Source of the DNA: Trichormus sp. M33_DOE_039
GTDB lineage: Bacteria; Cyanobacteriota; Cyanobacteriia; Cyanobacteriales; Nostocaceae
Direction: 5' to 3'
Assembly (NCBI GenBank): GCA_015296085.1
Contig: DVDT01000055.1
Coordinates: forward strand, 1 to 64,000
DNA: 64,000 bases
In this document: positions 10,831 to 63,512 of the stretch, in pieces
Layout: each line of letters begins with the position of its first letter
How positions within the stretch are numbered: position 1 is the first letter of the stretch
Translations under genes and position numbers: made by a program
The notes under the pieces: model-generated
Told to the model about the DNA's origin: nothing
The model's database searches: none
The model's input: the letters and a program-made list of their open reading frames with translations, nothing else

Positions 10831-11699
10831 TCCTGCTCACTCCTTAAATCCATCCAGCGACGCGTACCAAAATGTTTACAAGCTTCAGCCGCAATTTTCG
10901 CTGCTTGATCAAGAGCATGAGTAAAATCGGCTTGTAAAATATAGTGGCAAAAAGCACCGTGAAAAATGTCTCCAGCCCCTAGTGTATCAACTGGCTGGAT
11001 GGAAGGTACAGCTATAGTCCCAAATTGACCACGACTGGAGTAGGTGATTGGTTGTTCTCCGTGGGTAACGGCGATGTGGGGAACTCCCAAAGCTTGGAGA
11101 TAGGCGAAAACTTCTGTTTCGGAGTGACAATTAGGAGGGTGAAAGTTGGCGGAACAAATAGCGTAATCTCCTAATGGTAAGACTTGCTCAAATCCAGTTT
11201 TCCAGCTACCACCATCGATAACTACAGGGATATGATGAGCCTTTGCCATTTTAGCGATCGCATATCCCACTTGCATCTGATGACCATCGATGAGGACGAT
11301 ATCTATATTATTTAAGATATCTGCTGGAATTGAAGCAACATCGGCTGGAGTTTTCACTGCATTGATAGAAATTACCGCTCTTTCGCCTGTGGCTTGGGTG
11401 ACAATAATTGAAGATACTGGCGGTGCTGTATTGATGTGAGGTGCAAGATCAGCGATCGCTACATTATATTTAGTTAAATCTCCTCGGATTAACTGTGTCA
11501 TGGGATGCGAACCCAATACACCTAAAACTGTGGCTTGATTACCTAAATAACTAAAAGTTACAGATGCGTTAGTAGCCGGGCCACCTGCTGCTACAGTGTA
11601 GTCAGATGCCACTAACTTTTGATTATTTTGCGGCGCAGATTCAGCTAAGTAAATTAAATCTAAGGTGATTAAACCAACAAATAAGGCGTGATTAGTCAT
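10827..11699 (-). CDS. PfkB-family carbohydrate kinase
   Basis: The 290-residue kinase has the ribokinase fold. The N-terminal AAGGPATNASVTFSYLG (37-53) is PfkB signature 1, and DTLGAGDIFHGAF (238-250) is signature 2 with the anion hole and the catalytic Asp244. The C-terminus is short. The substrate (a sugar, nucleoside or sugar phosphate) cannot be told from the sequence. It is the first gene of a two-gene operon with the CysQ-like phosphatase (4-bp overlap), which suggests that both act on a related phosphorylated metabolite; this is inference. The upstream region has TTAGTTA heptamer repeats and is shared with rsmI in divergent orientation. Confidence 0.85.
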   Translation of the reverse strand: MTNHALFVGLITLDLIYLAESAPQNNQKLVASDYTVAAGGPATNASVTFSYLGNQATVLGVLGSHPMTQLIRGDLTKYNVAIADLAPHINTAPPVSSIIVTQATGERAVISINAVKTPADVASIPADILNNIDIVLIDGHQMQVGYAIAKMAKAHHIPVVIDGGSWKTGFEQVLPLGDYAICSANFHPPNCHSETEVFAYLQALGVPHIAVTHGEQPITYSSRGQFGTIAVPSIQPVDTLGAGDIFHGAFCHYILQADFTHALDQAAKIAAEACKHFGTRRWMDLRSEQE

Positions 11700-11825
11700 T
11701 AGTCATTAGTTATTAGTTATTAGTTATTAATTCCCCCAATGCCTAATTCCCCATGCCCTATGAGCAAAATTCTTTAATTTTGAATTGATTAGCCCAATCC
11801 CCAATCCCCAATCCCTAGTCCCCAT
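11696..11825. repeat. Heptamer tandem repeats between PfkB gene and rsmI
   Basis: The start codon region of the PfkB gene is followed by TTAGTCA/TTAGTTA heptamers (about 11696-11731), and CCAATCC heptamers occur at about 11793-11820. These are cyanobacterial STRR-type repeats in a divergent promoter region of 128 bp. Confidence 0.7.
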
Positions 11826-18332: not shown

Positions 18333-21300
18333 TCAAGCAGATGTATTGGAGGATTGTAATTTAATTCCCAAAACTTGGGTGTAAGCTCCCCTGGCTTGAG
18401 TAACACCAATGGTGCGTTCGGCTGATTCTATCATCGGACGACGCAAACTCACAACTATGAACTGGGCTTGTTGTGCCTGTTTCTTGATCATTCTTGATAA
18501 TCGCTCAACGTTTGCGCCATCGAGAAACATATCCACTTCATCAAAGGCGTAGAAGGGTGAGGGGCGGTAGCGTTGGAGGGCGAATATAAAGCTTAATGCA
18601 GTGAGGGATTTTTCTCCCCCAGACATAGAGGCGAGTCTTTGGACTGGTTTACCTTTGGGGTGGGCGACTAAATTTAAGCCACTGGCGAAGGGATCTTCAG
18701 GATTATCCAGTTGCAGATAGCCGTCACCGTCAGAAAGAGTGGCGAAAATTCCTTGAAAGTTTTCGTTGACAGCATCGAAGGCTTCTTTAAAGGCTTGTTG
18801 GCGCAGCGTGGTAAAGTTCTCAATCCGCAAGAGTAATTCTGTACGTTCTGCTTCTAATGTCTGCAATTTTTGACTGAGTTCTTCGAGGCGGTTTTGAGTG
18901 CGTTCGTATTCTTCCAAAGCCAACATATTCACAGGTTCCATCGCTTGCAAGCGTTTGGCTAGCGATCGCAATTCTTTCTGCAATTCTTCTAAGTCTACCT
19001 GATCTGGTACTTCTGGTAAGGGATTGGGTAATTCGGGGGCGAGTTCTTGGATTTGGGTTTGCAAAGCTGCTAAGTCTTCCCGACGCTTCAGTTGGCTTTC
19101 TTCCAGCTTTTGGATTTCCCATTCTAATTGTTGCTGACGTAGGAGGTGCGATCGCACTTGCTGTTCTAGTGCATCGCGTTTTTGTTTTTCTTCACCCAGA
19201 TTCTTTTCCATTTCACTCATTTGAGCGCGGGTGGCGGCTATTTGAGTGCTGAGTGCTGAGTGCTGAGTGCTGAGGGTGGCGATTTGAGTTTGTTGAGTTT
19301 GTTGCTCTTGTTGATATTGAGTAATGCGTTGTTCAGCTTCTTGGATGCGTTCTTGGAGACGTTGTTGTTGATTTTCGAGGTTCTTTAATCTTTGTTCGGC
19401 TTCTCTAAAGGCGGTTTCTCTTTGCTGTAATTGCTGTTCTTGAATTTTTATTGTTGCTTGGATTTGTTGCCATTCACTGGGGGTTTGGGAAGCTTCTAAA
19501 TCGGCTAGGGTGTGGCGTAATTGCTGTAATTGGGTTTCTTGTCCTGGGAGTTCATTATCTAGGATTTCCAGGCGAGACTGGGCGGTGTGAAATTTTTCGG
19601 TGTTTTGGGTGAGTTGCGATCGCGTTCCTTCTAACTGCGCTGTTAAACTCTTAATCTCTTTTTGCAATTGTTCTAATTGCAATTGCTGTTCTCGCCGTGC
19701 TTGACGGGCTTCGGTGAGTTCTTGGGATAATTGTTTGCTTCTAGATGATAAAGTGGCGATCGCTTCGGTACAACGATCTAAAACTTTGTCAATATCCTGC
19801 AAACGCTGTTTTAAAGCTACCGCTTCGTCTGATTCCGCCGCTTCTCCCTTTCCAAAGCGTAATGATGAACGCTGATTCATACTACCGCCAGTCATCGCGC
19901 CACTGGTTTCTAGTAATTCGCCGTCTAAGGTGACGATGCGATATAAGCCGAGATTTTTCCGCGCCTGTTCTAAAGTACTGAATACGACTGTGTTACCGAA
20001 AACATAATTAAATACATCCCGATAACGGCGATCGCATTCTACTAAGTTCACTGCATAACTAACAAAGCCGTTAGCTAATCGTAATGTCGCATCTTGGGTA
20101 ATTCTGGGAGCTTGAATTTTGTTTAATGGTAAAAAAGTCGCTCTCCCCGCCCGTTTTTGTTTCAGCAGTTCAATGCCAGCGGCGGCGATACCGTCATCGT
20201 CCACTACAATATGTCCTAACCGCGCCCCAGCCGCAATTTCCAACGCTAACTGATAACGGGGTTCAACGCGTCCCAAATGCACCACCAAGCCGCAAACTCC
20301 AGGTAATCCTGATTGAATAATTACTTTACTGGCTTGCGTTCCCTGGACTTCTTGCTGGGCTTGGGTTTGTGCATCAATTTTATCTAACTGACGCTGTTTT
20401 TCTCGTTGTTCTTGCAACAACCGCTTTTGAGTTTCCTGTTGAATTTGTAATTCCTGATCTGTGGCGGTGAGATTTTGAGCTAAATCTTGGATGGGTTCAC
20501 TAGAAGTATTAAACTCGGCTTCTAACCTGGTACACTCAGCTTGTTTTTCTGCCAACTGCGGCTCTAAATTGGCAATTAACTGTGTTTCCTCTTCAATTAA
20601 CTCCTGTAATTGATTATTCCGTTCTCTAAGTTGGGCTTGTTCAGTACGCTGCGGTTCTAGAGTTTGCAGCAAAGTTTCTATTTGACGGTTGAGTGCAGTT
20701 TGTTGCTGTACCCAAGCTTCCGAAGCCGTGGCGATGGCTGCGGCGGCTTCACGGGACTTTTCCAAGACTTGTTGAGCTTCATCCCGTTGCTGCTGACAAT
20801 AGACGATGGATTGCTGTTCTAACCCCTGCGCTTGGGCGATTTCATTCAACCCCTGGTGCTGCTGTTGAATTTCTTGCTGAGTTTGCGCCAACCGCCTTGC
20901 AGTTTCTTGGGAAGTTGTGTTTAACTCTGCTTGCTGACGTTCCAGTTGCTTCCGTTCTGCTTCTTGGGTAGCCAGGGTAGATTGTACAGCTAATAGTTCT
21001 TCTTCACCCAAAGCTTTGACGTGAGCATTAAGTTGTTCTAATTCCGCTGTTTTTTGAGCAATTTCTGTATTGAGACTTGTGAGTTGAGTTGTGAGTTCAC
21101 CATAATTGCGATCGCCTGCTTGTATTTCCGTGGCTAACTTTTCCTGCTGCGCTTGCAGAGAACGCCAAGATAACACCGCCTCCCAAGATTGCTTATGCAA
21201 GTATTCTGTTCGTAGTTTTTGATACTTCTCCGCCTTCGCTTTATCTTGAGACAGGCGATCGCGCTGTAAAGTTAATTCATTCTCAATGATTCGACAACTA

Positions 21301-27627: not shown

Positions 27628-28052
27628 TCCTCACATTCCCAGATACTGAAATTTATCCATTGTTGCTCATAATAAGACTTAAACATCTTTAGTGATGTTG
27701 TGGATAAAAATAACTATTTTAATTTTTTACCAAATAAGACTTATATTCCAATATGGTTCAGTTAAGGTTACAAGAAGACGGCTTGAGAAGGAAGCAAAAG
27801 TTCATAGTAATGACTTTAGTCCGTACTACGAAGCAGACTCAAATACTTGTAAATGATTCAACTTAGATAAATCAGTTGGTATTTAGTACTTTTACCTTTT
27901 TGGATATTACTGTTGTGAACTCTCACCTTATAAACAAAATATTCTGGGAATTGGGGACTGGGAAAGAGAGATTGTCATGTTTAGTTTGGGAATTTTCCCC
28001 ACACCCCTACACCCCTACACCCCTACACCCTTATACCCCCATCCCCTCAATG
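27628..28052. other. 425-bp region with CACCCCTA tandem repeats
   Basis: AGTAATGACTTTAGTCCGTACT near 27806 is an imperfect short hairpin of a type also seen at 58041-58060. At 27997-28043 an array of CACCCCTA octamers occurs just past the end of the exported-protein gene. Short plus-strand frames over the array are not credible genes. Confidence 0.6.
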
Positions 28053-28776: not shown

Positions 28777-30396
28777 TTAAAAATTTAAAATATCGATTGA
28801 TGCCATAATTTCTAACTCCAGGATTCTGTCTTTTGCATCTTTGAGTCCTGCTAAATTTCCTTCTTGATGATAGATGTTTGCTGCTTTTTGAAAGTCCATG
28901 ATTGCTGCTTGCAGATTTTTCATGCCAGCATAGATATTGCCGCGATTGTAATACGCATCAGCATAATTAGGATTAATTTGAATTGCCTGGGTATAATCTG
29001 CGATCGCGCCTTCTTCGTCACCTAAATCACAATGCACATTCCCCCGATTATAATACACATCAGCAAGATGAGGATTAATCTGTAGTGCTTGGGTATAATC
29101 TGCAATCGCGCCTTGGTAATCGCCAATATCCGCACGCACGTTACCACGATTTTTATAAGCATTGGCATCGTGGGAGTTGATGGGAACTGCTTGGTTAAAT
29201 CCTGACTGATTCTTGGTAATGTAACGAGCAATATCGGGATTTTTATATATATCTGCATACTGCGGATTAATTTTAATTGCCTGAGTATAATCTTCAATCG
29301 CTCCTTGATTATCGCCTAAGCAAGAACGTGCTTCGGCACGGTTTTTATAAGTAATAGCAATATGAGGATTGATGAGAATTGACTGGGTGTAATCATTAAT
29401 TGCTGCTTCATAAGCTCCCATTTGTGATAGAGCTAGTCCCCGTTTATGGTAAGCTTTGGCATCAGTGGTATTGAAACTTATAACTTGAGAATAGTCTGCG
29501 ATCGCTTTTTCGTAATCGCCTATTTGATAATACGCTGAACCGCGTTGATAATACAATTCTGGGTTTTGTAAATTTAGCTTTAAGGCTTGGTTATAATGGC
29601 TGATAGATGCTGAATACTCTCCTTTCAATAGACATTCATCACCCAGTTTTTTATGATCTATATCGAAATCTTGGGAACTAGATAGTGTGGCAGTTCTAGA
29701 AACAGATTGTTTGACAATTTTCTGATGTGTTGATTCTGACTGATTATGATGTTTATATAGAATATATGGCTGACTAATTACATGATGCTTATTTTTATTT
29801 TGTAAAAATTCCAAATAGGAATATAAACCACCAGCGTACAATAATTGCTCAATGCCAAAAGATATACTGCCAGTTTTCAGTTTAATCATTTGTGTAGGGA
29901 GAAATCCGGCTAAGAACAAATGGTATTCGGATTGTGCTTCGTGTACGGGTTCTTGAATTAAAATGCAAACTACCACTGCATTTTTTTCCACTTCTTCAGA
30001 ACTAATTGACCATCTCACTTTATCAATACTACCGTGACGGGATTTTACTTCAACACCAATAGATGGGTCAGATGTGAGGGTAAAATCTATCTTGCCATCA
30101 CCACCAAATCGCTTTTCATAGTCTACTTCTGTAATCAGATCAGCCAAACGTTCTTTAACAACTTCCTCACCTAATTTCCCTTTCAAGTAGCTAATAAAAA
30201 CATCCCGGACTGGCGAAACGCGTTTATATTTTTCTGCCATTTGCCAACAAAAATTCCGCAAGGCTTTGAGTCTATCGCCAGAGATGACTGTTAACTCACT
30301 GTATTGACCTTCTGTTTCGCAATGCAGTAAACAACCAGATGATAACCTTTTAATGAAATCAGACTGTAGCGATCGCAGTAGTGTAATCCAGTCCAT
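28777..30396 (-). CDS. PD-(D/E)XK nuclease-like domain fused to TPR repeats
   Basis: The 539-residue protein has an N-terminal domain (about 1-200) with the layout of a PD-(D/E)XK nuclease: GKLGEEVVKERL (Glu77/78), IDFTL (Asp104) and VEVKSRHG (Glu116, Lys118), so the three catalytic positions are present. A linker (200-245) leads to about eight TPR units (245-525; e.g. AYYNRGNIYAGMKNLQAAIMDF), one of them eroded (IYKNPDIARYITKNQSG). The fusion suggests a nuclease-fold protein guided by protein contacts. The role is unknown: defence, DNA repair or regulation. It lies alone. Confidence 0.7.
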   Translation of the reverse strand: MDWITLLRSLQSDFIKRLSSGCLLHCETEGQYSELTVISGDRLKALRNFCWQMAEKYKRVSPVRDVFISYLKGKLGEEVVKERLADLITEVDYEKRFGGDGKIDFTLTSDPSIGVEVKSRHGSIDKVRWSISSEEVEKNAVVVCILIQEPVHEAQSEYHLFLAGFLPTQMIKLKTGSISFGIEQLLYAGGLYSYLEFLQNKNKHHVISQPYILYKHHNQSESTHQKIVKQSVSRTATLSSSQDFDIDHKKLGDECLLKGEYSASISHYNQALKLNLQNPELYYQRGSAYYQIGDYEKAIADYSQVISFNTTDAKAYHKRGLALSQMGAYEAAINDYTQSILINPHIAITYKNRAEARSCLGDNQGAIEDYTQAIKINPQYADIYKNPDIARYITKNQSGFNQAVPINSHDANAYKNRGNVRADIGDYQGAIADYTQALQINPHLADVYYNRGNVHCDLGDEEGAIADYTQAIQINPNYADAYYNRGNIYAGMKNLQAAIMDFQKAANIYHQEGNLAGLKDAKDRILELEIMASIDILNF

Positions 30397-34069: not shown

Positions 34070-34332
34070 GGGTGTAGGGGTGTGGGGGTGTAAGGGTGTA
34101 GGGGTTTTAAAATATACCCGTATATCTGTATACCCCTATACCCCCATACTGACAGGTGTAGGTTTTTAATAGAGCAGTGAGTGATGACTATCAAACCAAC
34201 GACAGAATCATATTTTCATCCACACCTACACCCCTACACCCCTACACCCCTATACCCCTATACCCCTACACCCCTATACCCTTACACCCTTACACCCCTA
34301 CACCTGTGAGATACCCCCATACCCCTACACCT
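34070..34332. repeat. Inverted arrays of CACCCCTA-type octamers upstream of comF
   Basis: At 34070-34105 the plus strand is G-rich (GTGTAGGG/GGTGTAAG units). At 34220-34332 it is C-rich, with about a dozen CACCCCTA / TACCCCTA units. The arrays are complementary and could pair into a long stem around 34106-34219. The C-rich arm is open in one frame, giving a Pro/Thr repeat ORF that I regard as accidental. This makes up most of the 316-bp gap before comF. Confidence 0.85.
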
Positions 34333-47800: not shown

Positions 47801-50800
47801 ATGAATAAAACCTTTGCTACGATTGACGGCAATGAAGCTGTTGCCCGTGTAGCTTACAAATTAAATGAAGTAGTAGCTATCTATCCTATTACACCCTCCT
47901 CTGCAATGGGTGAATGGGCGGATGCTTGGATGGCGGAAAGTCGTCCTAATCTGTGGGGAACTATTCCCAGTGTGGTGCAGATGCAAAGCGAAGGCGGGGC
48001 GGCTGGTGCGGTACATGGGGCGTTACAAACGGGTGCTTTGAGTACCACTTTCACCGCATCCCAGGGACTCTTATTAATGATTCCCAACCTCTACAAAATT
48101 GCGGGGGAATTAACTAGCACTGTAGTTCATGTTGCAGCTAGGTCTTTGGCTACCCATGCGCTGTCTATTTTCGGTGATCATAGCGATGTGATGGCAGCTC
48201 GTGGTACTGGTTTTGCTATGCTGTGTTCGGCTTCCGTACAGGAGAGTCACGATTTTGCGCTGATAGCCCATGCGGCTACTTTAGAAGCGCGAGTTTCCTT
48301 TTTACACTTCTTTGATGGTTTTCGTACCTCCCATGAAGTGCAGAAAGTCGAGCTATTGTCAGATAATGATTTGCGATCGCTCATTAACGAAGACAAAATT
48401 TTCGCCCATCGCGCCCGCGCCCTGACTCCAGAACGCCCATTACTGCGCGGGACAGCCCAAAACCCTGATGTTTACTTCCAAGCCCGTGAAGGTGCAAACC
48501 CCTACTACAACGCTTGTCCTGAAATTGTCCAAGGAATTATGGATAAATTTGGGGAGCGTACAGGCAGATTTTACCAGCTTTATGAATATCACGGCGCGAG
48601 TGATGCTGATCGCGTCATTATCATCATGGGTTCTGGCTGTGAAACTGTCCATGAAACTGTAGATTACCTCAATTCCAGAGGTGAAAAAGTCGGTGTTCTC
48701 AAAGTCAGACTGTATCGCCCCTTTGATGTAGAGAGATTTATCCAGGCTTTACCTAATAGTGTAAAAGCGATCGCAGTCCTCGACCGCAGCAAAGAACCAG
48801 GAAGTGCGGGTGAACCTTTATATCAAGATGTAGTCACCGCTATCCATGAAGCCAATCCAAAATCCAAAATCCAAAATCTAAAATCGGTCGTTGGTGGACG
48901 ATATGGGTTGTCATCAAAGGAATTTACGCCGGCGATGGTAAAGGCTGTGTTTGATAACTTAGCCCAGGCTACGCCGAAAAATCACTTTACTATCGGGATT
49001 AATGACGATGTTACCCAAACATCCTTAAGCTTTGATCCCAATTTCTCGACTGAACCCGATAGCGTTGTCCGGGCGATGTTCTATGGTTTGGGTTCTGATG
49101 GGACTGTGGGGGCTAACAAAAACTCTATTAAGATTATTGGGGAAGGAACAGACAACTATGCCCAAGGCTATTTTGTCTATGACTCCAAAAAATCAGGCTC
49201 AATGACCGTTTCTCACCTGCGCTTCGGTTCTCAACTCATCCGTTCTACTTACTTAATTGACCAAGCTAACTTTATCGGTTGTCATCACTGGGGATTTTTG
49301 GAACGCATAGATGTATTAAAAGCGGCTGCAACTGGGGCGACTATTTTAATTAATAGTCCCTATGATGCGGATGCTGTCTGGGAACATCTCCCACTAAAAG
49401 TGCGGCGACAAATTTTAGACAAGCAACTAAAACTCTACGTCATCAACGCCAATCAAGTTGCCCGTAATAGTGGTATGGGTGGCAGAATCAATACTATTAT
49501 GCAGGTGTGCTTCTTTGCTTTGGCGGGGGTATTGCCACAAGAGCAGGCGATCGCCAAAATTAAACAAGCCATTGAAAAGACTTACGGTAAAAAAGGCGCG
49601 GAAGTTGTCCGCATGAACCTACAAGCCGTAGACCAAACCCTAGATAATTTACATCAGGTACAAATCCCTGTTGAGGAAAAAGGCAAATGGATAGATATAG
49701 AACAATCTACCCAAAACCCCTTTCCCAGCAGCGTTCCGGCATTTGTACAGGAAGTTCTGGGGAAAATTATGGTGTGGCAAGGTGATGACTTACCTGTCAG
49801 TACACTACCACCAGATGGGACATTTCCCACAGGAACGGCGAAATGGGAAAAACGCAACGTTGCTCAAGAAATCCCTGTCTGGGATGGAGATGTCTGCGTT
49901 CAGTGCAGTAAATGCGTTATGGTTTGTCCCCACGCTGCAATTCGCGCTAAGGTTTATCAACCGAATGAATTACTGAATGCGCCGCCTAACTTCAAATCAG
50001 TCAATGCCAAAGATAGAGACTTTGCTAACCAAAAATTTACTATCCAGGTAGCCCCAGAAGATTGTACAGGCTGCGCTATTTGTGTGAATGTCTGCCCAGC
50101 CAAAAATAAGTCTGAGCCATCACTGAAAGCGATTAACATGGCGCAGCAATTACCTTTACGGGAACAGGAAAGGGAAAATTGGGATTTCTTCTTGAGTTTA
50201 CCAAACCCTGACCGAAAAAAGCTAAAAATCAACCAAATTCGCCAACAACAACTGCAAGAGCCGTTATTTGAATTTTCTGGTGCTTGTGCTGGTTGTGGTG
50301 AGACACCTTACCTAAAATTATTAACACAACTATTTGGCGATCGCGCAGTCATTGCTAACGCCACAGGTTGTTCCTCAATTTATGGCGGAAATCTCCCCAC
50401 CACCCCTTGGACGAAAAACGCCGATGGACGCGGCCCCGCATGGTCGAATAGTTTATTTGAAGATAATGCCGAGTTTGGTTTTGGCTATCGTCTCTCATTA
50501 GATAAGCAAGCGGAATTTGCAGCGGAACTCTTACAACAGTTCAGCACCGAAGTAGGGGATAACTTAGTGCAGTCTCTCCTCAAAGCTGAACAAAAAACCG
50601 AAGCTGAGATTTGGGAACAACGCGAACGTGTGACACTGCTACGTCAGGAATTAGATCAACTCCTGATTACAGAATTAGATCCCAAACGCCAGTCGCAAAT
50701 TCACATCCTCAAATCCCTGGCTGATTACTTAGTGAAGAAAAGCGTCTGGATTATTGGCGGTGATGGTTGGGCTTATGATATCGACTTTGGTGGTATTGAT

Positions 50801-51379
50801 CATGTGTTAGCCAGTGGTCGCAATGTCAATATTTTGGTGATGGATACAGAAGTGTATTCCAACACCGGCGGACAATCCTCCAAAGCCACTCCACGCGCCG
50901 CCGTCGCCAAATTCGCCGCCAGTGGAAAGCCTGCACCTAAGAAAGACTTGGGTTTAATGGCGATGAACTACGGCAATGTTTACGTGGCGAGTGTAGCGTT
51001 AGGTGCAAAAGATGATCAAACACTTAAAGCCTTTGTAGAAGCAGAAGCTTTTGACGGGCCATCGCTAATTATTGCTTACAGCCATTGCATCGCCCACGGT
51101 ATCAACATGACTACAGGGATGAACCACCAGAAAGCCTTAGTAGAATCAGGACGCTGGTTATTGTATCGCCATAACCCATTGTTACGAGAACAGGGTAAAA
51201 ATCCCTTACAGTTAGATATGCGATCGCCTACTCAATCAGTAGAGCCATCCATGTATCAAGAAAATCGCTTCAAAATGCTCACCAAGAGTAAACCAGAGTT
51301 AGCTAAACAATTGCTAGCACAAGCACAAGCTGAAGTTGATGCCCGTTGGCAAATGTATCAATATTTAGCTAATAGATAA
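47801..51379 (+). CDS. nifJ: Pyruvate:ferredoxin (flavodoxin) oxidoreductase
   Basis: The protein of about 1192 residues oxidises pyruvate to acetyl-CoA and CO2 and reduces ferredoxin or flavodoxin, e.g. for nitrogenase. Domain I starts NKTFATIDGNEAVARVAYKLNEVVAIYPITPSS. Two 4Fe-4S clusters lie in CVQCSKCVMVCPHAAI (about 698) and CTGCAICVNVCPAKN; the thiamine diphosphate domain has FSGACAGCGETPYLK and DGWAYDIDFGGIDH. The start is ATG 47801-47803, with CAGGGAG upstream. A heptamer repeat adds about 9 residues at 48855-48882. PFOR is oxygen-sensitive, so it works in heterocysts or anoxia. Confidence 0.96.
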   Translation: MNKTFATIDGNEAVARVAYKLNEVVAIYPITPSSAMGEWADAWMAESRPNLWGTIPSVVQMQSEGGAAGAVHGALQTGALSTTFTASQGLLLMIPNLYKIAGELTSTVVHVAARSLATHALSIFGDHSDVMAARGTGFAMLCSASVQESHDFALIAHAATLEARVSFLHFFDGFRTSHEVQKVELLSDNDLRSLINEDKIFAHRARALTPERPLLRGTAQNPDVYFQAREGANPYYNACPEIVQGIMDKFGERTGRFYQLYEYHGASDADRVIIIMGSGCETVHETVDYLNSRGEKVGVLKVRLYRPFDVERFIQALPNSVKAIAVLDRSKEPGSAGEPLYQDVVTAIHEANPKSKIQNLKSVVGGRYGLSSKEFTPAMVKAVFDNLAQATPKNHFTIGINDDVTQTSLSFDPNFSTEPDSVVRAMFYGLGSDGTVGANKNSIKIIGEGTDNYAQGYFVYDSKKSGSMTVSHLRFGSQLIRSTYLIDQANFIGCHHWGFLERIDVLKAAATGATILINSPYDADAVWEHLPLKVRRQILDKQLKLYVINANQVARNSGMGGRINTIMQVCFFALAGVLPQEQAIAKIKQAIEKTYGKKGAEVVRMNLQAVDQTLDNLHQVQIPVEEKGKWIDIEQSTQNPFPSSVPAFVQEVLGKIMVWQGDDLPVSTLPPDGTFPTGTAKWEKRNVAQEIPVWDGDVCVQCSKCVMVCPHAAIRAKVYQPNELLNAPPNFKSVNAKDRDFANQKFTIQVAPEDCTGCAICVNVCPAKNKSEPSLKAINMAQQLPLREQERENWDFFLSLPNPDRKKLKINQIRQQQLQEPLFEFSGACAGCGETPYLKLLTQLFGDRAVIANATGCSSIYGGNLPTTPWTKNADGRGPAWSNSLFEDNAEFGFGYRLSLDKQAEFAAELLQQFSTEVGDNLVQSLLKAEQKTEAEIWEQRERVTLLRQELDQLLITELDPKRQSQIHILKSLADYLVKKSVWIIGGDGWAYDIDFGGIDHVLASGRNVNILVMDTEVYSNTGGQSSKATPRAAVAKFAASGKPAPKKDLGLMAMNYGNVYVASVALGAKDDQTLKAFVEAEAFDGPSLIIAYSHCIAHGINMTTGMNHQKALVESGRWLLYRHNPLLREQGKNPLQLDMRSPTQSVEPSMYQENRFKMLTKSKPELAKQLLAQAQAEVDARWQMYQYLANR
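48855..48882 (+). repeat. Heptamer STRR inside nifJ
   Basis: ATCCAAA occurs three times plus one ATCTAAA, encoding NPKSKIQNLKS in a surface linker. The unit is 28 bp, and the frame is open through it. Confidence 0.85.
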
Positions 51380-51393
51380 TAGCTATTAGCTAT

Positions 51394-51421
51394 TAGGTAA
51401 TGGGTCATGACCTATTACCTA
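51394..51421. terminator. Palindrome after nifJ
   Basis: TAGGTAATGGGTCATGACCTATTACCTA is nearly a perfect palindrome of 28 bp, 15 bp past the nifJ stop, next to TAGCTAT repeats. It could be a terminator but lacks a T-run. The rest of 51422-51587 shows no gene. Confidence 0.4.
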
Positions 51422-54325: not shown

Positions 54326-57300
54326 TTATTGCCATTCACCCTGTAAAGTGAAAGCTGCCCAGTAATATGGCGCAGAGTAGTTTTGACTTTGCGACATTTC
54401 TATTTGTGCTGCTCTGAGTGCTGCCGCAGGTTTCAAGCCATCTTGTAACATCTTCTGATAAAAATTTTTCATCAGTATAGAGGTTGCCTCATCGTCCACA
54501 TTCCACAAACTCACGACAACTCTGGGACTACCAGCATACATAAAGCCTCTGGTTAAGCCAACTAATCCTTCTCCTCTGACTTGTTCGCCTAAGCCAGTTT
54601 GACAGGCACTCAAAACAACTAGTTGGGCTGAGAGTTTGAGATTAAAAATATCATGCAGACGCAAAAAGCCATTTTGGGGATTGCCTGTTTGATCAAACAA
54701 TGACAAAACTAATCCTGATAACTCTGGATGTACGGTGTTGAGGATGCCATGAGTGGCAAAATGGATAATTCGGTATTGGCTCAAGTCTTGATTCAGTGCT
54801 GTTTCCCTGTTCGCGGCAAAGTCTAATGCCTGCTTTCTAATACTAGGCGATACCAGTTTGAGAATTTGCTCGGCTTCTTGGCGGGTAAATGGTAAACGAT
54901 CAAAAGTAATATTGAATTCTTTGACAGAACGTGTTAATTGCTGCTGAGATATCTGTTGACTGTATTGAGAAGATTGCTGTTTTTCTGACTGAATACGCTG
55001 ATCATCATGGGAAAATATGGGATCAGCAATCACAGCTAACATCTTAGAAGGTGTTTGGCGATGGGTTATTTGTTGCCTCAGAATGGCGATTGTAGATGCT
55101 GACGGCAAATTGATAATTTCATGACGCGTTGCCAATGGCTGAGGTGAGTCTGGGAGGCTCAAGGCGGCAAACGGTACATATTGCAAAGCTCCATGACTCA
55201 CAATTACTAAACGTTGCGGTTGGAGCTGCTGGGCTACTGGTGCGAGTATGAGCTGAGATAAAACAGACGCAGTTTTGGCTGTGTTTGCTCTTTGAATTGG
55301 GCTGGTGATACTCTTGCGGAACTGTCGCGCCGCCAGTTCTATGTCTGCACGTTTAGGTAATTCATAACTAGTTATAGTTTTTTTGGTAACTGCCCAAAGA
55401 TAGCTACGCTCTTCCCCTAGGTAATATTCTAAAAGCAGGGTGTTATCATCCAGCACTGAAGACTGAATTTGTTTTACAGACAGCGATTGGGGTTGAGTCA
55501 AAGCTGCATAACCAGGACTAGCGGTGCGAATCTGTGCTTGCAATTGTTGATATTTTTCCAACAGTTCGGCAATTTTTTTTTCTAAAGCTGGCGTTTGATT
55601 CTGCTTATCAGTTAATGACTGTATCCGCAGCTTTTCTAAAGCATTCAGTTCTTGTTGCAATGCGCGTTCTGCTGCTAGTAATTTTGGATCTACGCCTTGA
55701 CGGATATCTGCATTAGCTTCCGTCAGCAGATCCAAAAGACTCCGAGCGCGGGCTTGTTCACTTACTTGTAATGCTAGTGCATCGTAACCTTTGGATGGTT
55801 GTTGTTGGTGCAGGCGCATTAACAAATCAATGTAAAACTCATAATACTTCTGTACAGTGGCAAAGTAGGAAGTACGCAGTTGTTGACTACTAACTCTGGT
55901 ACGTATATCTTCAATAATTTTAATAGTTGTCTCGATATTGGTGCGAGAGGCGTTGAGATTACCTTGATTGCGGAAGGCTATCGCTATATTGTAAAGTGTT
56001 TCTGCTTTCCCTGCCAAGTCTCCCAATTCTTGCCGTAAATTCAATTCCCGACGGTAATTTCGAATTGCCTGTTGAGGGTTTCCAGATAAATTGTAAGCTT
56101 TGCCAATATTACCAATAACATTAGCTTCCGCATTCTTAATTCCTAGTTTTTTAAACTTATGGACTGACTGATTTAATGAATCTAAAGCTTGAGAATAATC
56201 TGCTTTTGATAAATACACCCTGCCTAAAAGAGCAAGAGCAGAAGCTTCCATAAAACTGTCTTGTTGTTTTTTCGCCAACAATAAACTCTGCTCGGCAGTA
56301 GCTAAGGCTTGAGGATAATCTGACAATGATTCATAAACTCTAATAATTCCTGTCAGTGTAGTGAATTCCTGCAAATGCCCTCCCAACTCCTGCCACAATT
56401 GCAAAGCTTGTTTGTAATAATTCAGTGCTTCTTGATGATTTGCTGCTGCTTGATAAACGCTACCAACATGATCAAGAGTTTGAGCTATACTGCTGCGGTC
56501 TTGTACTATCTGAAATATTTCTAAAGCTTGGTTATAAGTTTGCAGACTTAGTTGATAATCACCTAGCGATTTATAAACTCTGGCAATATAGCTGAGTGTA
56601 TTCGCTTCTCCTTGACGCTCTTTGAGTTGCCGTTGCAAAGTTATTGCTTGGTTATACAAATCTAAGGCTTTTTGATACTCTCCTAATGATTCGTAAATTT
56701 CAGCCATGTTACTCAGAGTAAAAGCCTCTCTAGAAGAGAATTTATTAGCTCGCTGTAAAATTAATGCTTGGGTTAGTGAGTCGAGTGCTTGCTGTTTTCT
56801 ACCTAACCTATTGTAAATAAAACTCATTTGTTCTAAGACTTCAGCCTCATCATAACTATTTTGTGATTTTTGTAGTAATGAACGGGCTTGATGTAAATAG
56901 TCTAAGCCCTGCTCATAATCCCCAATAGCTGAATCTGTGCTGCTTAGAGCCATAAAAGTTATCACTTGGCTACTAATATTAATTCCTGGTGTAGTTTTTT
57001 GCAATTCCAGTAATAAATTAAAAACTGCTTGAGCTTTTTGATTTTCACCTAATGATGTATATAGTAAACCAATCAAGTTAAGTGTATCAATTTCACCTAT
57101 TGAATTTTTAGTTTGGCGTTGAATTTCTAGAGCTTGATTTAAGGCATCTAGTGCCTTTTTAGCCTCTCCCAGTTGCATATAAGCTTGCCCAATAGTTTGG
57201 AGAGTATCAGCTTGTCCTATTAAATCTTTCTGAGAAACTTGCAGTGATAGTGCTTGATGATAAGAATCTAGTGCTTTTTTACTTTCACCTAAACTGAAAT

Positions 57301-57949
57301 ATATTCTGCCAATACTAATAAATATTTGAGATATAAAATCATTTTTTTTCTCTGCTTGAAATAATGATAAAGCTTGCTTGTAATATGTTAGTGCTGTTAA
57401 TTTATCATCTAATCGAAAGTAAGAATTAGCGATTGATTGAAGTGCAATAGCTTCTTCAAAGCGGTTTTTAAGTTCACGTCTAATTACTAGTACTTGACGA
57501 TAGTATGTTAATGCTTTTTGCTGCTCATTTTGTAGATGGTAAATAGTACCAATACGGAAAAGAGTGGTTGCTGCTTCAGGACGCGCGCCTAGTTGTTGCC
57601 AAATTTCCAATGCTTGCAAGTATTTAGCAAGTGCTTCTTTGCGAGAGATGACTGTTCCTTGTTGAAAGAGTTTGTCTGCTGCTTGTAATAAATTTTTGCC
57701 TTGTATATAGCTTGGCTGATTTTCGGTATTAACTTGGTTTGTTTTAGAAGTAAGTACCTGCACTAATCTCAAATTTTTTGCATGCACGGCTATTCCACTT
57801 GATGCAAAAAAAATTACAGTAAAAATTAGTAAAAATAGAGTATTTTTGTGGAAAAACTGACTCAATCGGCATTTCATTGAATGTTTGCCTTTTTTCATCA
57901 AACTGGATACACTGCCACTGCATTTTAACTTTTGATACAGCTTTGTCAA
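54326..57949 (-). CDS. Exported TPR-CHAT domain protein
   Basis: The 1207-residue protein has a membrane or signal segment (about 35-57), then about 14 TPR units (70-660), a helical linker (660-900) and a CHAT domain (about 940-1207). The caspase-like His-Cys dyad is present: His1067 in HFATHG and Cys1116 in [10 protein letters not shown], followed by [31 protein letters not shown]. The family may be peptidase or scaffold; here the location suggests periplasmic action. Other Met codons near residues 18 and 25 could be the start. It lies 187 bp past the next gene on the same strand. Confidence 0.88.
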
Positions 57950-58063: not shown

Positions 58064-58152
58064 TAATTCTCTATGAAGTTGCACCAAATAAATGATGTGG
58101 AGATGTTATATGCAAAGTCTCTAAAGTGCATCTTCATTAAGAAACGGTATTA
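58064..58152. repeat. MITE-like repeat, copy B, overlaps a stop codon
   Basis: It resembles copy A at 16394-16500 over almost its full length (TTCTCTATGAAGTT...CATCTTCATTAAGAAACGG), but its central palindrome is eroded. On the minus strand its right end encodes the last four codons and stop (NTVS-TAA) of the coiled-coil/TPR gene above it. A hairpin TAAGGACT TT AGTCCTTA lies just left (58043-58060). Confidence 0.75.
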
Positions 58153-60410
58153 CCTTTGGATTCGTTAGTCGCTCTTGGAGGTTTGGGGTTTATTAATTTC
58201 CTAAAATCTTCATTATCGGCAATTTCATCAAAATCTATATCATTGGTAGCGTCTTCTTGATATCTAGGATTGAGATTAATTGCTTGTTGCAAATTTTCTA
58301 AAGCCAAATCCACTTGTCTTTGGAGTGCATAACAAGCAGCTTTGTTATAGAAAGCACTAGCATAATCTGGTTTAATTGCTAATGCTTTATCAAAGGCAAT
58401 AATGGCTTCATCGTCCTTACCTAATCTAACAAGAGTATAACCGCGTTTATCCCAAATTTTGGGAGATTCTGGTTGAAATTTCAAGGCTTCATCAAAAGAA
58501 GTGATTGCTTCTTCATATTGTTCTAATTCTATTAATGCTAAACCGCGATTTGTCCAAGCCACTGCATCTTCTGGTTTGATTTTTATAGCTTGATCAAAAG
58601 ATTTAAAAGCGTCTTGGTGTCGTAGTAAATAACCAAAAGCAACACCGCGATCGCACCATGCTTGATGATACTCTGGCTGAATTTTAATCGCACGATTGTA
58701 CGATGCGATCGCTTGTTTATAACGTTTCAATCTAGCAAAAGTAAGACCACATTTAAACCAGAGGATAGCATCATCAGGGTTGATTTTTACTGCTTGCTCA
58801 TAAGCTGCGATCGCCTCTGCATATTGCTTTTGGGAAAAGAAGTTATCTCCCTGCTGGATATAATCATCAGATGTGAATTTTGGCAGGTCGTTTTCTGTTG
58901 CTGGCTGAGGTGCTGGCGATGATGTTCCTATCGTAATTACCGCAGGTTTAGCTTCTGCTAATTCTTGTAAAATTACATTTTTGCGCTGTTGAGCATCTAA
59001 TTGCAATTCCGATAGTTGTGAAACAAACTCTGTTTCTAATTTCTCTAATTTTTCTAGAATCAGTAATTTTTGCTGTTGAGCATTGAATTGCAATTCTGAA
59101 AATTGTGAAACAAAATCTGAACCTGATTTTTCTAAATCTTCTAAAATTTGCTCTTGGCGATTTTGAGCACCTATCTGTAATTCAGCTAGCTGAGATGCAA
59201 ACTCTGATTTCAGCTTTCTTAACTCTTGTTGAATTTGTAACTGTGATTCACTTATTTGGGTTTTAAATAAATTTTCTAATTCTTGGAGATTTTGTAATAT
59301 CCTATCTTTTTGGGTGTTAACTTCTGACTGGGAGTTAGATAATTGCTGTGTAAACTCTGCTTGTATCTTTGTTAAATTCTCCCACAGAATATCTTTGTGT
59401 CTTTGAGTATCTTCTGTCAGTCCTAATATTTGAGACTGGAATTGAACTTCTATGGCTTGGATGTTTTCTAATTTGATATTTTTTTGCTGCTGTACATCTG
59501 ACTGTAATGTAGATAGCTGCTCATTAAATTCTGTTTGTAAATTATTCAAACCTGCAATTATATTATTTTGCTGCTGTTGAGTATCAGCATATAAATTTCC
59601 TAGTTGCGTATTAAATTCTAACTTGGATGTATCTAAATTTTCTAAAATTAATCCCTGGTGACTTACAACATCTTTTTGTAATTCAGTCAGTTGATTGACA
59701 AATCCTGATTCCATCTTGTCTATATTTGTTAGAGTTATATCTCTTTTTTGTTGCGTATCTAACTCTAATTGAGACAGATGGCTAGCGAAATCAGATACTA
59801 AACTTTCAATTTTCGTTTGAAAATTTGCGACTTCCGAAGATATTTTGGCTAAATTATCAGCCTTGGCTTGCAAGATTTCTGATGTTACAAGAGATAAATT
59901 ATCTTGCTCCGTTATGATTTTTTGCTGTAAGTTTTCTGCTTCTCTTTCTAAAGCGCGAGTAATTCCTTTCGCTTCTTGAATGAGATTTTCCGCATCTTGC
60001 TTAACTAGTGTTAGTTGTCCTTCCAGTTTCTCCACGCCTTGTAACTGTGACATGGCCCTATCAACAATTTCACGGATAGCCACCCGTCGCAGTAGCCAAA
60101 ATAAAGCAATCATCGCTACTGGAAATAAACTCAAGATAACTAACCAAATATTCAACAGAATAGTTGTCCGACTAAAAGCTTGCTCAAAATCAGCTTTTAT
60201 CTGCTCTAAAACCCGTTTTTCCGTTTGCAGTTGGCTTAATGTTTGTCCTGGTTGATTCGGTATGGCTTGAGCAGTAATTTGTTGACGAGAAGTGGATGGT
60301 GTCGTTTGTCCACTACTGAACTCAGCGGACAGCAGCAAGGGTGAAAAGACGATGACACTTTTCAAAACGAGGGATAATACAAATTTATTGTTGCTCTTCA
60401 TCACAACCAT
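58137..60410 (-). CDS. Membrane protein with 29-residue coiled-coil repeats and C-terminal TPRs
   Basis: The 757-residue protein has a signal-like segment (about 10-30), a second membrane helix (83-108), a coiled-coil region and a TPR domain (about 515-740, six units such as AEAIAAYEQAVKINPDDAI). Residues 208-490 hold ten tandem repeats, nine of 29 residues and one of 22 (F-x2-QL-x2-L-x5-QQ pattern). It has no catalytic motif. M4 (60401) has AGGA upstream and may be the real start. The C-terminus comes from a MITE-like repeat. It probably shares a transcript with the TPR-CHAT gene. Confidence 0.75.
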   Translation of the reverse strand: MVVMKSNNKFVLSLVLKSVIVFSPLLLSAEFSSGQTTPSTSRQQITAQAIPNQPGQTLSQLQTEKRVLEQIKADFEQAFSRTTILLNIWLVILSLFPVAMIALFWLLRRVAIREIVDRAMSQLQGVEKLEGQLTLVKQDAENLIQEAKGITRALEREAENLQQKIITEQDNLSLVTSEILQAKADNLAKISSEVANFQTKIESLVSDFASHLSQLELDTQQKRDITLTNIDKMESGFVNQLTELQKDVVSHQGLILENLDTSKLEFNTQLGNLYADTQQQQNNIIAGLNNLQTEFNEQLSTLQSDVQQQKNIKLENIQAIEVQFQSQILGLTEDTQRHKDILWENLTKIQAEFTQQLSNSQSEVNTQKDRILQNLQELENLFKTQISESQLQIQQELRKLKSEFASQLAELQIGAQNRQEQILEDLEKSGSDFVSQFSELQFNAQQQKLLILEKLEKLETEFVSQLSELQLDAQQRKNVILQELAEAKPAVITIGTSSPAPQPATENDLPKFTSDDYIQQGDNFFSQKQYAEAIAAYEQAVKINPDDAILWFKCGLTFARLKRYKQAIASYNRAIKIQPEYHQAWCDRGVAFGYLLRHQDAFKSFDQAIKIKPEDAVAWTNRGLALIELEQYEEAITSFDEALKFQPESPKIWDKRGYTLVRLGKDDEAIIAFDKALAIKPDYASAFYNKAACYALQRQVDLALENLQQAINLNPRYQEDATNDIDFDEIADNEDFRKLINPKPPRATNESKGNTVS

Positions 60411-61269: not shown

Positions 61270-61478
61270 AAACAGGAAACGGGAATGGGGAATGGTAAAA
61301 AATAAGCCACCCATTCGTTAGAGAAGTTTAACAGTATCATCATCCATAATGGATGCTCTCTATCAACCAGATCCTACCTGTTACCTCTGATCTGTCACCT
61401 GTCCCCAATCCTTGCCATGAACATTCCTGTAATGGTAACGTCTACAAGTTCGCACAGAGTAGAAGCATTTCTCAAACC

Positions 61479-63512
61479 ATGAAGCGTAGACAAAAAGTAG
61501 CCTCACTGATTAGTCTTACCTTAATCTCTGGCTACCTCGTACCAAATACCGCTATCATCGCCGCCCCACCCAGAAGTCCAGACAAAACTATTAATTGTGA
61601 AATTTTAGTTGTAGGTGGCGGACTCTCCGGTGTAGCTACAGCTTATGAGGGTTTGTTAGCCGGAAAAAGGGTTTGCTTAACAGAAATCACTGACTGGTTA
61701 GGAGGACAAATTTCTTCACAAGGAACATCTGCATTAGATGAACGACCAACTCAACGCAGTCGCCAGTTTTATTCTCGTGGCTATCTAGAACTACGCAACC
61801 GTATCCAAAAAAAATACGGTGAACTCAACCCTGGAGACTGTTGGGTAAGTGATTCCTGTTTTCTACCGCGAGATGCTCATACAATTCTGGAGCAAATGCT
61901 CAAGGATGCGGAAAAACGGGGTAAAGGTAAGTTGGAATGGTTTCCCAACACAGTAATTAAAGAGTTAGAAGTCTCTGGGAAAAATAATAATACCAGTGGA
62001 CAGTTAATTAATAGCGCGATCGCTATCCAACATCAACCAGCAAAAGGCGCACCACCCCTCAACACCTTTCCCCTATCACAAACAATAGACGACGCTTATC
62101 GCTACAACAACTCGTCTCGCTTCACTAAAACTATTATTCGTTTCGTCCCTAAGCAAACTAAAGGTAAAGTACCCTGGTATGTTGTAGACGCTAGTGAAAC
62201 CGGAGAGATTATTGCTTTAGCTGATGTCCCCTACCGCTTAGGTATTGATGGACGCTCCTTCCTAGAACCCTCTTCTTCTAGCAACAGCAATGACCCCTAC
62301 TGCACTCAAGGATTTACCTACACCTTTGCAATGGAGGCCACTAAAGACCCGCAGCCGCAGAAAATGCCGCCCTATTATCTGCAATACTCTCCTTACTTCA
62401 GCTATGAGTTAGAGCGGTTAGCCGATTTTGGCTTAGTATTTACCTATCGTCGCATTTGGAGTCCCAACCAAGGACAACCCACTACCTTCAGAGGAGTCAA
62501 CTTTACCGCCCCCACTCCAGGGGATATATCCATGCAAAACTGGACTTGGGGTAATGACTACCGACCTGGGACTGCCAAGGATAATCTAGTCTATACTCGC
62601 CAGCAGTTGCAAGCTAGAGGACAATTAAAACCCGGTGGTTGGATGGGTGGACTCAGAACAGAAACTTTTCGGAAAGCCGAAGAACACGCCCTTTCTTACT
62701 ATTACTGGCTAGTAGCTGGAACAACCGACTCCCAATTAGGAACGGGTGTGAAAAAGCAACAAACCAATAACCGCTTTTTATCTGGTTTAAATTCCCCAAT
62801 GGGGACGGTGCATGGCTTATCTAAATATCCCTATATGCGGGAAGGGCGACGTATCATCGGCCGTCCCAGTTGGGGTCAACCAGGAGGTTTTACTATTTGG
62901 GAAATAGATATTTCCCGCCGCAACTACAACGATGAATATTACCGCAAAACTCTGCCGGCCAATATGTATCGTCAGTTAACAGCCGCATTGGCAGGTTTAG
63001 AAGCCACATCGGTAATTGCTGGTCAAGTTTCGCCAGATAAAGCTATGCGTCGCACTCGTTCTACTATTTTCCCTGATGCTGTGGGTATTGGTCACTATGC
63101 CATTGACTTTCATCCTTGTATGACGAAAAGCCCACCAGAAGCAGCCGGTAATACAGAACGACCAGGAGAAAGACGCGGCGGCGGACAAGCTTATCCCTTC
63201 CAAATTGCACTGAGGGCAATGATTCCCCAAAAAGTTGACAATTTAATCGTCGGTGGTAAAAGTATTGCTACCAGTCATATAGCGGCGGCGGCTTACCGGG
63301 TTCATTCCTTTGAATGGTCTGCTGGCGCGGCGGCTGGAACGGTTGCAGCTTTTGCCCTCAAAAATAACATCCCACCTTACCAACTAGTAGATGATTTGCC
63401 CAAGTCAGAACCGCAACTACAAGCTTTGAAACGTCTATTAGAAAAGAATGGCAATCCCACAGCTTTTCCTGATACTTCCATTTTTAATCAAAACTGGGAA
63501 GATTGGCGGTAG
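61479..63512 (+). CDS. FAD-dependent oxidoreductase, exported
   Basis: A protein of about 677 residues with a signal peptide (MKRRQKVASLISLTLISGYLVPNTAIIA) followed by the dinucleotide-binding motif CEILVVGGGLSGVATAYEGLLAGK and the ITDWLGGQISSQG segment of the FAD-dependent PF12831-like family. C-terminal motifs are YPFQIALRAMIPQKVDNLIVGGKSIATSHIAAAAYRVH and ATS-like sequences. The reaction is unknown. I start at ATG 61479 because the signal peptide begins there; the open frame extends 42 codons further upstream to 61353. It lies alone. Confidence 0.8.
   Translation: MKRRQKVASLISLTLISGYLVPNTAIIAAPPRSPDKTINCEILVVGGGLSGVATAYEGLLAGKRVCLTEITDWLGGQISSQGTSALDERPTQRSRQFYSRGYLELRNRIQKKYGELNPGDCWVSDSCFLPRDAHTILEQMLKDAEKRGKGKLEWFPNTVIKELEVSGKNNNTSGQLINSAIAIQHQPAKGAPPLNTFPLSQTIDDAYRYNNSSRFTKTIIRFVPKQTKGKVPWYVVDASETGEIIALADVPYRLGIDGRSFLEPSSSSNSNDPYCTQGFTYTFAMEATKDPQPQKMPPYYLQYSPYFSYELERLADFGLVFTYRRIWSPNQGQPTTFRGVNFTAPTPGDISMQNWTWGNDYRPGTAKDNLVYTRQQLQARGQLKPGGWMGGLRTETFRKAEEHALSYYYWLVAGTTDSQLGTGVKKQQTNNRFLSGLNSPMGTVHGLSKYPYMREGRRIIGRPSWGQPGGFTIWEIDISRRNYNDEYYRKTLPANMYRQLTAALAGLEATSVIAGQVSPDKAMRRTRSTIFPDAVGIGHYAIDFHPCMTKSPPEAAGNTERPGERRGGGQAYPFQIALRAMIPQKVDNLIVGGKSIATSHIAAAAYRVHSFEWSAGAAAGTVAAFALKNNIPPYQLVDDLPKSEPQLQALKRLLEKNGNPTAFPDTSIFNQNWEDWR

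Follow-up and report, generated by a model that had tools for sequence, protein, structure and literature searches.

A predicted membrane-anchored TPR protein of cyanobacteria contains a tandem 29-residue coiled-coil repeat with conserved helical phase and variable length

Here, we present an analysis of a gene in a 64-kb window (the whole stretch of 64,000 nucleotides under study) that encodes a protein with a TM helix, a coiled-coil rod containing an array of tandem repeats, and a TPR domain (Table 1). The initial annotation proposed that the array forms a nearly straight rod of fixed length between the membrane and the TPR domain. The locus raises the question of whether such an array maintains a length or a helical geometry, and what a rod of this kind might do. 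Our computations show that the protein contains a tandem 29-residue repeat, that the pitch of its hydrophobic stripe matches that of an undistorted helix, and that length changes mostly keep this pitch. We favor, as the most likely reading and with some reservation, that the protein is a membrane-tethered cytoplasmic scaffold or spacer that carries its TPR domain at a distance of tens of nanometers.

Table 1. Features of the rod protein gene and of the neighboring genes in the window
Feature	Residues	Positions	Strand	Basis or remark
Rod protein gene	1-757	58137..60410	minus	757 aa: hydrophobic N-terminal segment, TM helix, coiled-coil rod, TPR domain
Hydrophobic N-terminus	1-35	60306..60410	minus	Signal peptide or first TM
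TM helix	88-106	60093..60149	minus	Arg-rich segment on its C-terminal side (positive inside)
Membrane-proximal helix	110-207	59790..60083	minus	Without clear 29-residue units
Array	208-490	58941..59789	minus	Ten units in tandem, nine with 29 residues and one with 22
22-residue unit	382-403	59202..59267	minus	Lacks unit positions 14-20 (seven residues)
Pro-containing linker	491-513	58872..58940	minus	Model: low confidence, no helix
TPR domain	514-713	58272..58871	minus	Pfam TPR families, model, PDB TPR matches
TPR end-of-group domain NF047558	686-741	58188..58355	minus	89.9 bits, cut-off 32
CHAT-domain TPR protein		54326-57949	minus	CHAT 246 bits; 187 bp downstream of the rod gene, same strand
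FAD-dependent oxidoreductase		61353-63512	plus	Upstream of the rod gene, opposite strand

The division of the array into ten units was exact as first described, with units starting at residues 208, 237, 266, 295, 324, 353, 382 (the short unit), 404, 433, and 462. Autocorrelation of residues 201 to 495 was highest at lag 29 (z = 14.5 relative to 300 shuffles, 32% identity), followed by lags 58 (z = 11.6) and 87 (z = 7.6); at the DNA level, Tandem Repeats Finder detected an 87-bp period at 58985-59147 and 58953-59169. The period is kept in homologs: lag 29 was among the top three in all 72 that could be measured among the 77 named homologs. Both refuting outcomes named in the initial annotation, an array with no peak at 29 and homologs lacking the period, are thus contradicted. 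The array is Gln-rich and net acidic (43 Asp/Glu versus 24 Lys/Arg) and contains seven Gly and a single Pro, at residue 489. The rods of four homologs (L053, L168, L184, and L188) had a top period of 51 or 50 (z = 18.4, 23.8, 13.4, and 14.8, respectively) and not 29 or 58; of these two values, 51 equals 29 plus 22. In the rods of L093 and L124, the top period was 18 (z = 9.7 and 9.4), with lag 29 ranking third.

The strong hydrophobic residues of the array gave a power peak of 27.7 at 3.63 residues per turn, compared with a maximum of 12.7 in 1,000 shuffles; the power was 0.7 at the heptad value of 3.5 and 2.6 at the hendecad value of 3.667. The median peak was also 3.63 (5-95% range, 3.62-3.64) across 116 rows comprising the window protein and 115 homolog frames, 14 of the rows being incomplete. 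This period equals that of an undistorted helix, given as 3.63 residues per turn in a passage of PMC9858780; therefore, little supercoil is expected, and the earlier suggestion of a nearly straight rod is supported. Because any 29-residue helical repeat peaks near the harmonic 8/29, the Fourier peak alone does not establish that the helix is continuous. According to the family profile (effective number 63), unit positions 1, 5, 8, 12, 19, 20, 23, and 26 are hydrophobic, with position 12 often being Ala; the nominal core slot 16 is mostly Lys, Arg, or Gln, and positions 15, 16, and 22 are polar, giving two stutters in a 7+11+11 pattern and core steps of 4-3-4-(4-3)-4-3-4 along the unit. Positions 1, 5, 8, 12, 19, 23, and 26 fall within 37 degrees of one direction, whereas positions 16, 20, and 3 lie at 50, 87, and −161 degrees, respectively; the positions flanking the core are rich in Gln and Glu. 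The hydrophobic positions, together with the polar slot 16, bear out the 7+11+11 reading of the initial annotation, and the core of the array is 7+11+11 and not four heptads plus a skip. With a helical hydrophobic stripe that has the core spacing of coiled coils, the region is a long coiled coil.

The claim that did not hold is that of a fixed length. The TM-to-TPR span, linker included, is between 319 and 744 residues (median, 464.5) in 102 complete sequences including the window protein, and between 326 and 666 residues in 72 named homologs; on this length variation, a fixed-length rod is ruled out. Differences in length also separate close relatives, with coils that are 95% identical and 116 residues apart in length (L065/L121) or 94% (L105/L106) and 92% (L087/L090) identical and 58 residues apart, although some near-identical pairs of unequal rod length come from draft assemblies in which repeats may have collapsed. 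The 14 incomplete rows were excluded from the span count that gave the 102 complete sequences as well as from the gap, cyclic-profile, anchor, topology, and proline counts below.

What is conserved instead emerges from the gaps between aligned homologs, scored as in phase if their length deviates by no more than 0.12 turn from an integral number of helical turns, for which uniform lengths would give 24%. Across 420 overlapping pairs whose coils are 50% identical or more, 699 of the 998 gaps within the coil were in phase compared with 212 of the 1,096 outside it; among gaps that are out of phase when taken singly, lengths of 3 (116/998) and 1 (48/998) were frequent. Because overlapping pairs are not independent, we used 41 disjoint pairs, in which 24 of 36 gaps in the coil but only 8 of 47 elsewhere were in phase (Fisher p = 5e-6); once gaps shorter than 5 residues were left out, the numbers were 23 of 29 and 1 of 17. 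The commonest gap lengths in these pairs were 58 (seven times), 7 (five times), 29 (three times), and 2 (three times). Because the aligner favors gaps of repeat length, we also removed the twelve multiples of 29 from the 29 coil gaps that are 5 residues or longer, leaving 11 of 17 in phase, and used an anchor test that involves no pairwise alignment. In this test, the unit motif was found in 59 of the 102 sequences, of which 45 were kept and 23 non-redundant ones used; the spacings between the TM helix and the final unit motif cluster around a period of 3.625 (R = 0.67), and the 18 distinct lengths gave R = 0.58 (p = 0.0012). A cyclic-profile count did not show quantized jumps, 149 of its 782 jumps being 7, 11, 18, or 22; this count was set aside because it penalized jumps only lightly and because the parse of the window protein placed jumps in the non-repeat flanks as well. 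Based on the gap and anchor analyses, what the sequences conserve is the phase and the period of the helix and not the length of the rod.

The placement between membrane and TPR domain is supported: a TM helix precedes the array and a TPR domain follows it. The predicted helix begins at the membrane, approximately 100 residues ahead of the array. AlphaFold2, run with the window protein and 28 homologs, predicted one helix over residues 82-484 and TPR helices from residue 514; the model is of a monomer, with moderate confidence in the rod (means of 10-residue blocks of about 43-77). Residues 110-207, which the model joins to the array in the same helix, have a hydrophobic peak at 3.565 that is weaker than that of the array. 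The TPR part of the model matches designed TPR and O-GlcNAc transferase structures, and with TPR families above their Pfam cut-offs and a TPR fold in the model, the window protein is a TPR protein. No solved relatives of the rod were found by sequence at E ≤ 0.1, and the structure searches were uninformative on the rod because TPR and TPR-like proteins dominate the best 50 matches. A hydrophobic segment lies ahead of the TM helix in 98 of the 102 complete sequences, window protein included; no cleavage site was predicted in residues 1-35 of the window protein. Lys and Arg are more numerous after than before the TM helix in 90 of the 102 sequences, equal in 12, and fewer in none. Because positive residues favor the post-TM side and no additional TM-like stretch was found in these sequences, the rod and the TPR domain are probably on the cytoplasmic side, as judged solely from charge counts.

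In distant homologs, prolines mark the same register. Interior prolines, defined as lying over 90 residues past the TM helix and over 60 residues short of the end of the stretch, are present in 37 of 52 non-redundant homologs and absent from 15 as well as from the window protein. Successive prolines are spaced by exactly 58 residues in 52 of 85 cases (random placements: mean, 0.6; maximum, 5; n = 2,000), and of 200 Pro-Pro distances, 143 are divisible by 29. The prolines occur most often within [ED]-F-[AST]-P-Q-L, in which F occupies unit position 1; Pro consequently occupies position 3, which faces outward. With offsets measured from the counterpart of residue 110 of the window protein, 14 of the 37 homologs have their first interior proline at offset 129; in the window protein, this offset corresponds to Asn 239, likewise at unit position 3. 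By this comparison of sequences, a register from the membrane is common to those proline-bearing homologs and the window protein, and the latter lost, or never had, the 58-spaced prolines.

Matches to the rod protein were found in all 13 genomes of the genus, including the window's own, in at least 113 of 243 genomes in the order sample, and in at least 67 of 386 in the phylum sample; absences in the latter two are soft because only six (order) or three (phylum) candidates were scored per genome, and the weakest matches there span only the region around the TM helix. A scan with patterns from nine near relatives yielded the 77 named loci, all with cyanobacterial titles; the titles that give a genus give heterocyst-forming genera such as Nostoc, Anabaena, and Scytonema. 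Regarding a viral origin, 30 stretches matched a pattern and none was confirmed as a relative. A limited literature search, covering its sources in part, did not find a description of the family. No conserved partner gene was found near the 77 named homologs, many of whose contigs end inside the searched flank: the FAD oxidoreductase was near 17 (>1,000 bits), an alpha/beta hydrolase gene near one, and the CHAT gene near none (tblastn, E ≤ 1e-5), so that an operon with the CHAT-TPR gene is not supported. Elsewhere in the window, tandem repeats with 7- or 8-bp units lie at 11691-11824, 19243-19274, 27997-28039, 34070-34304, 48854-48885, and 51366-51401; such short repeats are often found in filamentous cyanobacteria. 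A 102-bp tandem repeat of about two copies (28936-29151) is within a frame (28870-29304) with a match to the rod protein's TPR domain.

In the scaffold or spacer model that we favor, residues 110-490 would form one continuous helix, about 57 nm long if fully helical, that pairs with its own copies as a nearly straight coiled coil in a putative oligomer. The rod would start at the inner face of a membrane and extend into the cytoplasm, with the TPR domain at its distal end; the TM segment would fix the position, the rod would set distance and valency, and the TPR domain would bind a putative partner. The core would be left undisturbed by the gain or loss of entire units (29 or 58 residues) or of pieces that preserve phase (7, 11, 18, or 22), and evolution would therefore alter the reach of the rod and not its structure. 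In distant relatives, an outward proline per 58 residues may provide one face of the rod with regularly placed weak points or binding sites.

These prolines could also be taken to mean that the helix is interrupted at the borders between units and that the units fold back on each other, as helical hairpins or as a bundle. In the proline-bearing homolog L067, with prolines near residues 212, 270, and 328, a low-confidence model contains helices at 56-267, 269-427, and 435-557, and one of the three prolines lies at a break (breaks at 268 and 428-434). However, the window protein is modeled as one unbroken helix, loops do not need insertions and deletions that keep phase, and neither the window protein nor 15 of the 52 non-redundant homologs have interior prolines, making hairpins very unlikely. 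A single amphipathic helix lying on the membrane via a straight hydrophobic stripe, by analogy with apolipoproteins, is even harder to accept. A pitch near 11/3 suits a flat surface, and PF01442 matched 7 of ten rods at E < 1, with at most 40.7 bits relative to a cut-off of 90; nevertheless, the acidity of the array and the Gln and Glu flanking its core argue against such a location. Finally, the signal-peptide-like N-terminus could suggest a bridge across the envelope, with the rod and the TPR domain in the periplasm, but the charge bias around the TM helix is never reversed, and the TM-to-TPR spans would measure 47-110 nm if fully helical, which is long for a periplasm. Consequently, we consider this location highly improbable.

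A different role for the rod, which we regard as possible but doubtful, is that of a cytoskeletal part in which parallel dimers overlap and pack sideways into fine, membrane-attached filaments decorated by TPR domains. The analogy is with SF-assemblin, which forms 2-nm filaments and has the period of 29 in common with the rod. SF-assemblin/beta-giardin (PF06705, from eukaryotic striated-root fibers) is the best Pfam match of residues 1-503 of the window protein, yet at 9.6 bits (E = 0.74) this match is below the cut-off of 30.6. Among ten homolog rods, which were hand-picked, mostly long and proline-bearing, and from other GTDB families in nine cases and the window's family in one, all matched PF06705 at E < 1 and five exceeded the cut-off, with up to 53.6 bits. 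The match of the L113 rod was lost in all four altered versions (one residue per 29 removed, shuffled, class-shuffled, and reversed). In genome scans, PF06705 was above the cut-off in 7 of 20 distant genomes, chosen mostly for carrying long members of the family, and there only within rod-family genes, compared with 0 of 14 control genomes and 0 of 20 near relatives. Against this, matches at E ≤ 1 were also found in 18 of the 20 near relatives and 8 of the 14 controls; L066, L028, and L040, above the cut-off as rods, were not above it in the scan of distant genomes; and Apolipoprotein outranked SF-assemblin in two of the ten rods. Moreover, repetitive rods also pass unrelated cut-offs, as for L087 with Baculo_PEP_C (39.0; cut-off, 38) and L040 with DUF7605 (29.8; cut-off, 27), and so does the reversed L113 control with Thiamine_BP (31.9; cut-off, 24.9). 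Three other stretches with weak PF06705 matches had top lags of 18, 7, and 11, not 29; by their sequences, two of them resemble membrane-fusion-type proteins and one a sensor kinase. Support for polymerization comes from All4981 of Anabaena, likewise a cyanobacterial TPR protein and here compared by description, which an extract of PMC7002697 describes as filament-forming, as studied among coiled-coil-rich proteins, and as having predicted coiled coils that domain searches read as TPRs. Conversely, a variable rod length suits a fixed axial repeat poorly. From these comparisons, we conclude that the rod appears to be built like an assemblin rod, and we do not conclude that it is one. We also speculate, and think it unlikely, that cyanobacteria have their own membrane-anchored, assemblin-like 29-residue rods, by descent or convergence, some with membrane-registered, 58-spaced outer prolines, that form fine filaments or a molecular ruler set by copy number.

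Returning to the membrane-tethered scaffold or spacer, the protein represents, for cyanobacteria, a widespread candidate for linking membrane and cytoplasm. A natural family in which pitch is held and length varies provides a test of the insertions that a rod tolerates, and of whether 29-residue repeats give straight rods. Among known bacterial systems, FilP and Scy, actinobacterial DivIVA-like rods with hendecads, resemble this protein in being long rods of varying length; in the sections of PMC9858780 that deal with them, they have extended 11-residue repeats, an expectation of little supercoil, and homologs that vary in length. By contrast, the cyanobacterial protein has a period of 29 and not 11, a membrane anchor, and a TPR domain, and it has no Pfam match to the DivIVA family and lacks an N-terminal DivIVA-like motif. 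SF-assemblin, according to portions of PMC8435291 and PMC6070942, consists of a head and an alpha-helical domain of approximately 240 residues with consecutive 29-residue coiled-coil motifs, each of four heptads and one skip residue. The cyanobacterial protein has the 29-residue coiled-coil repeat but differs in its 7+11+11 core, and its TM anchor, TPR domain, and variable length depart from the head-plus-rod architecture. Because this 29-residue design is also that of eukaryotic striated-fiber proteins, a bacterial counterpart becomes testable.
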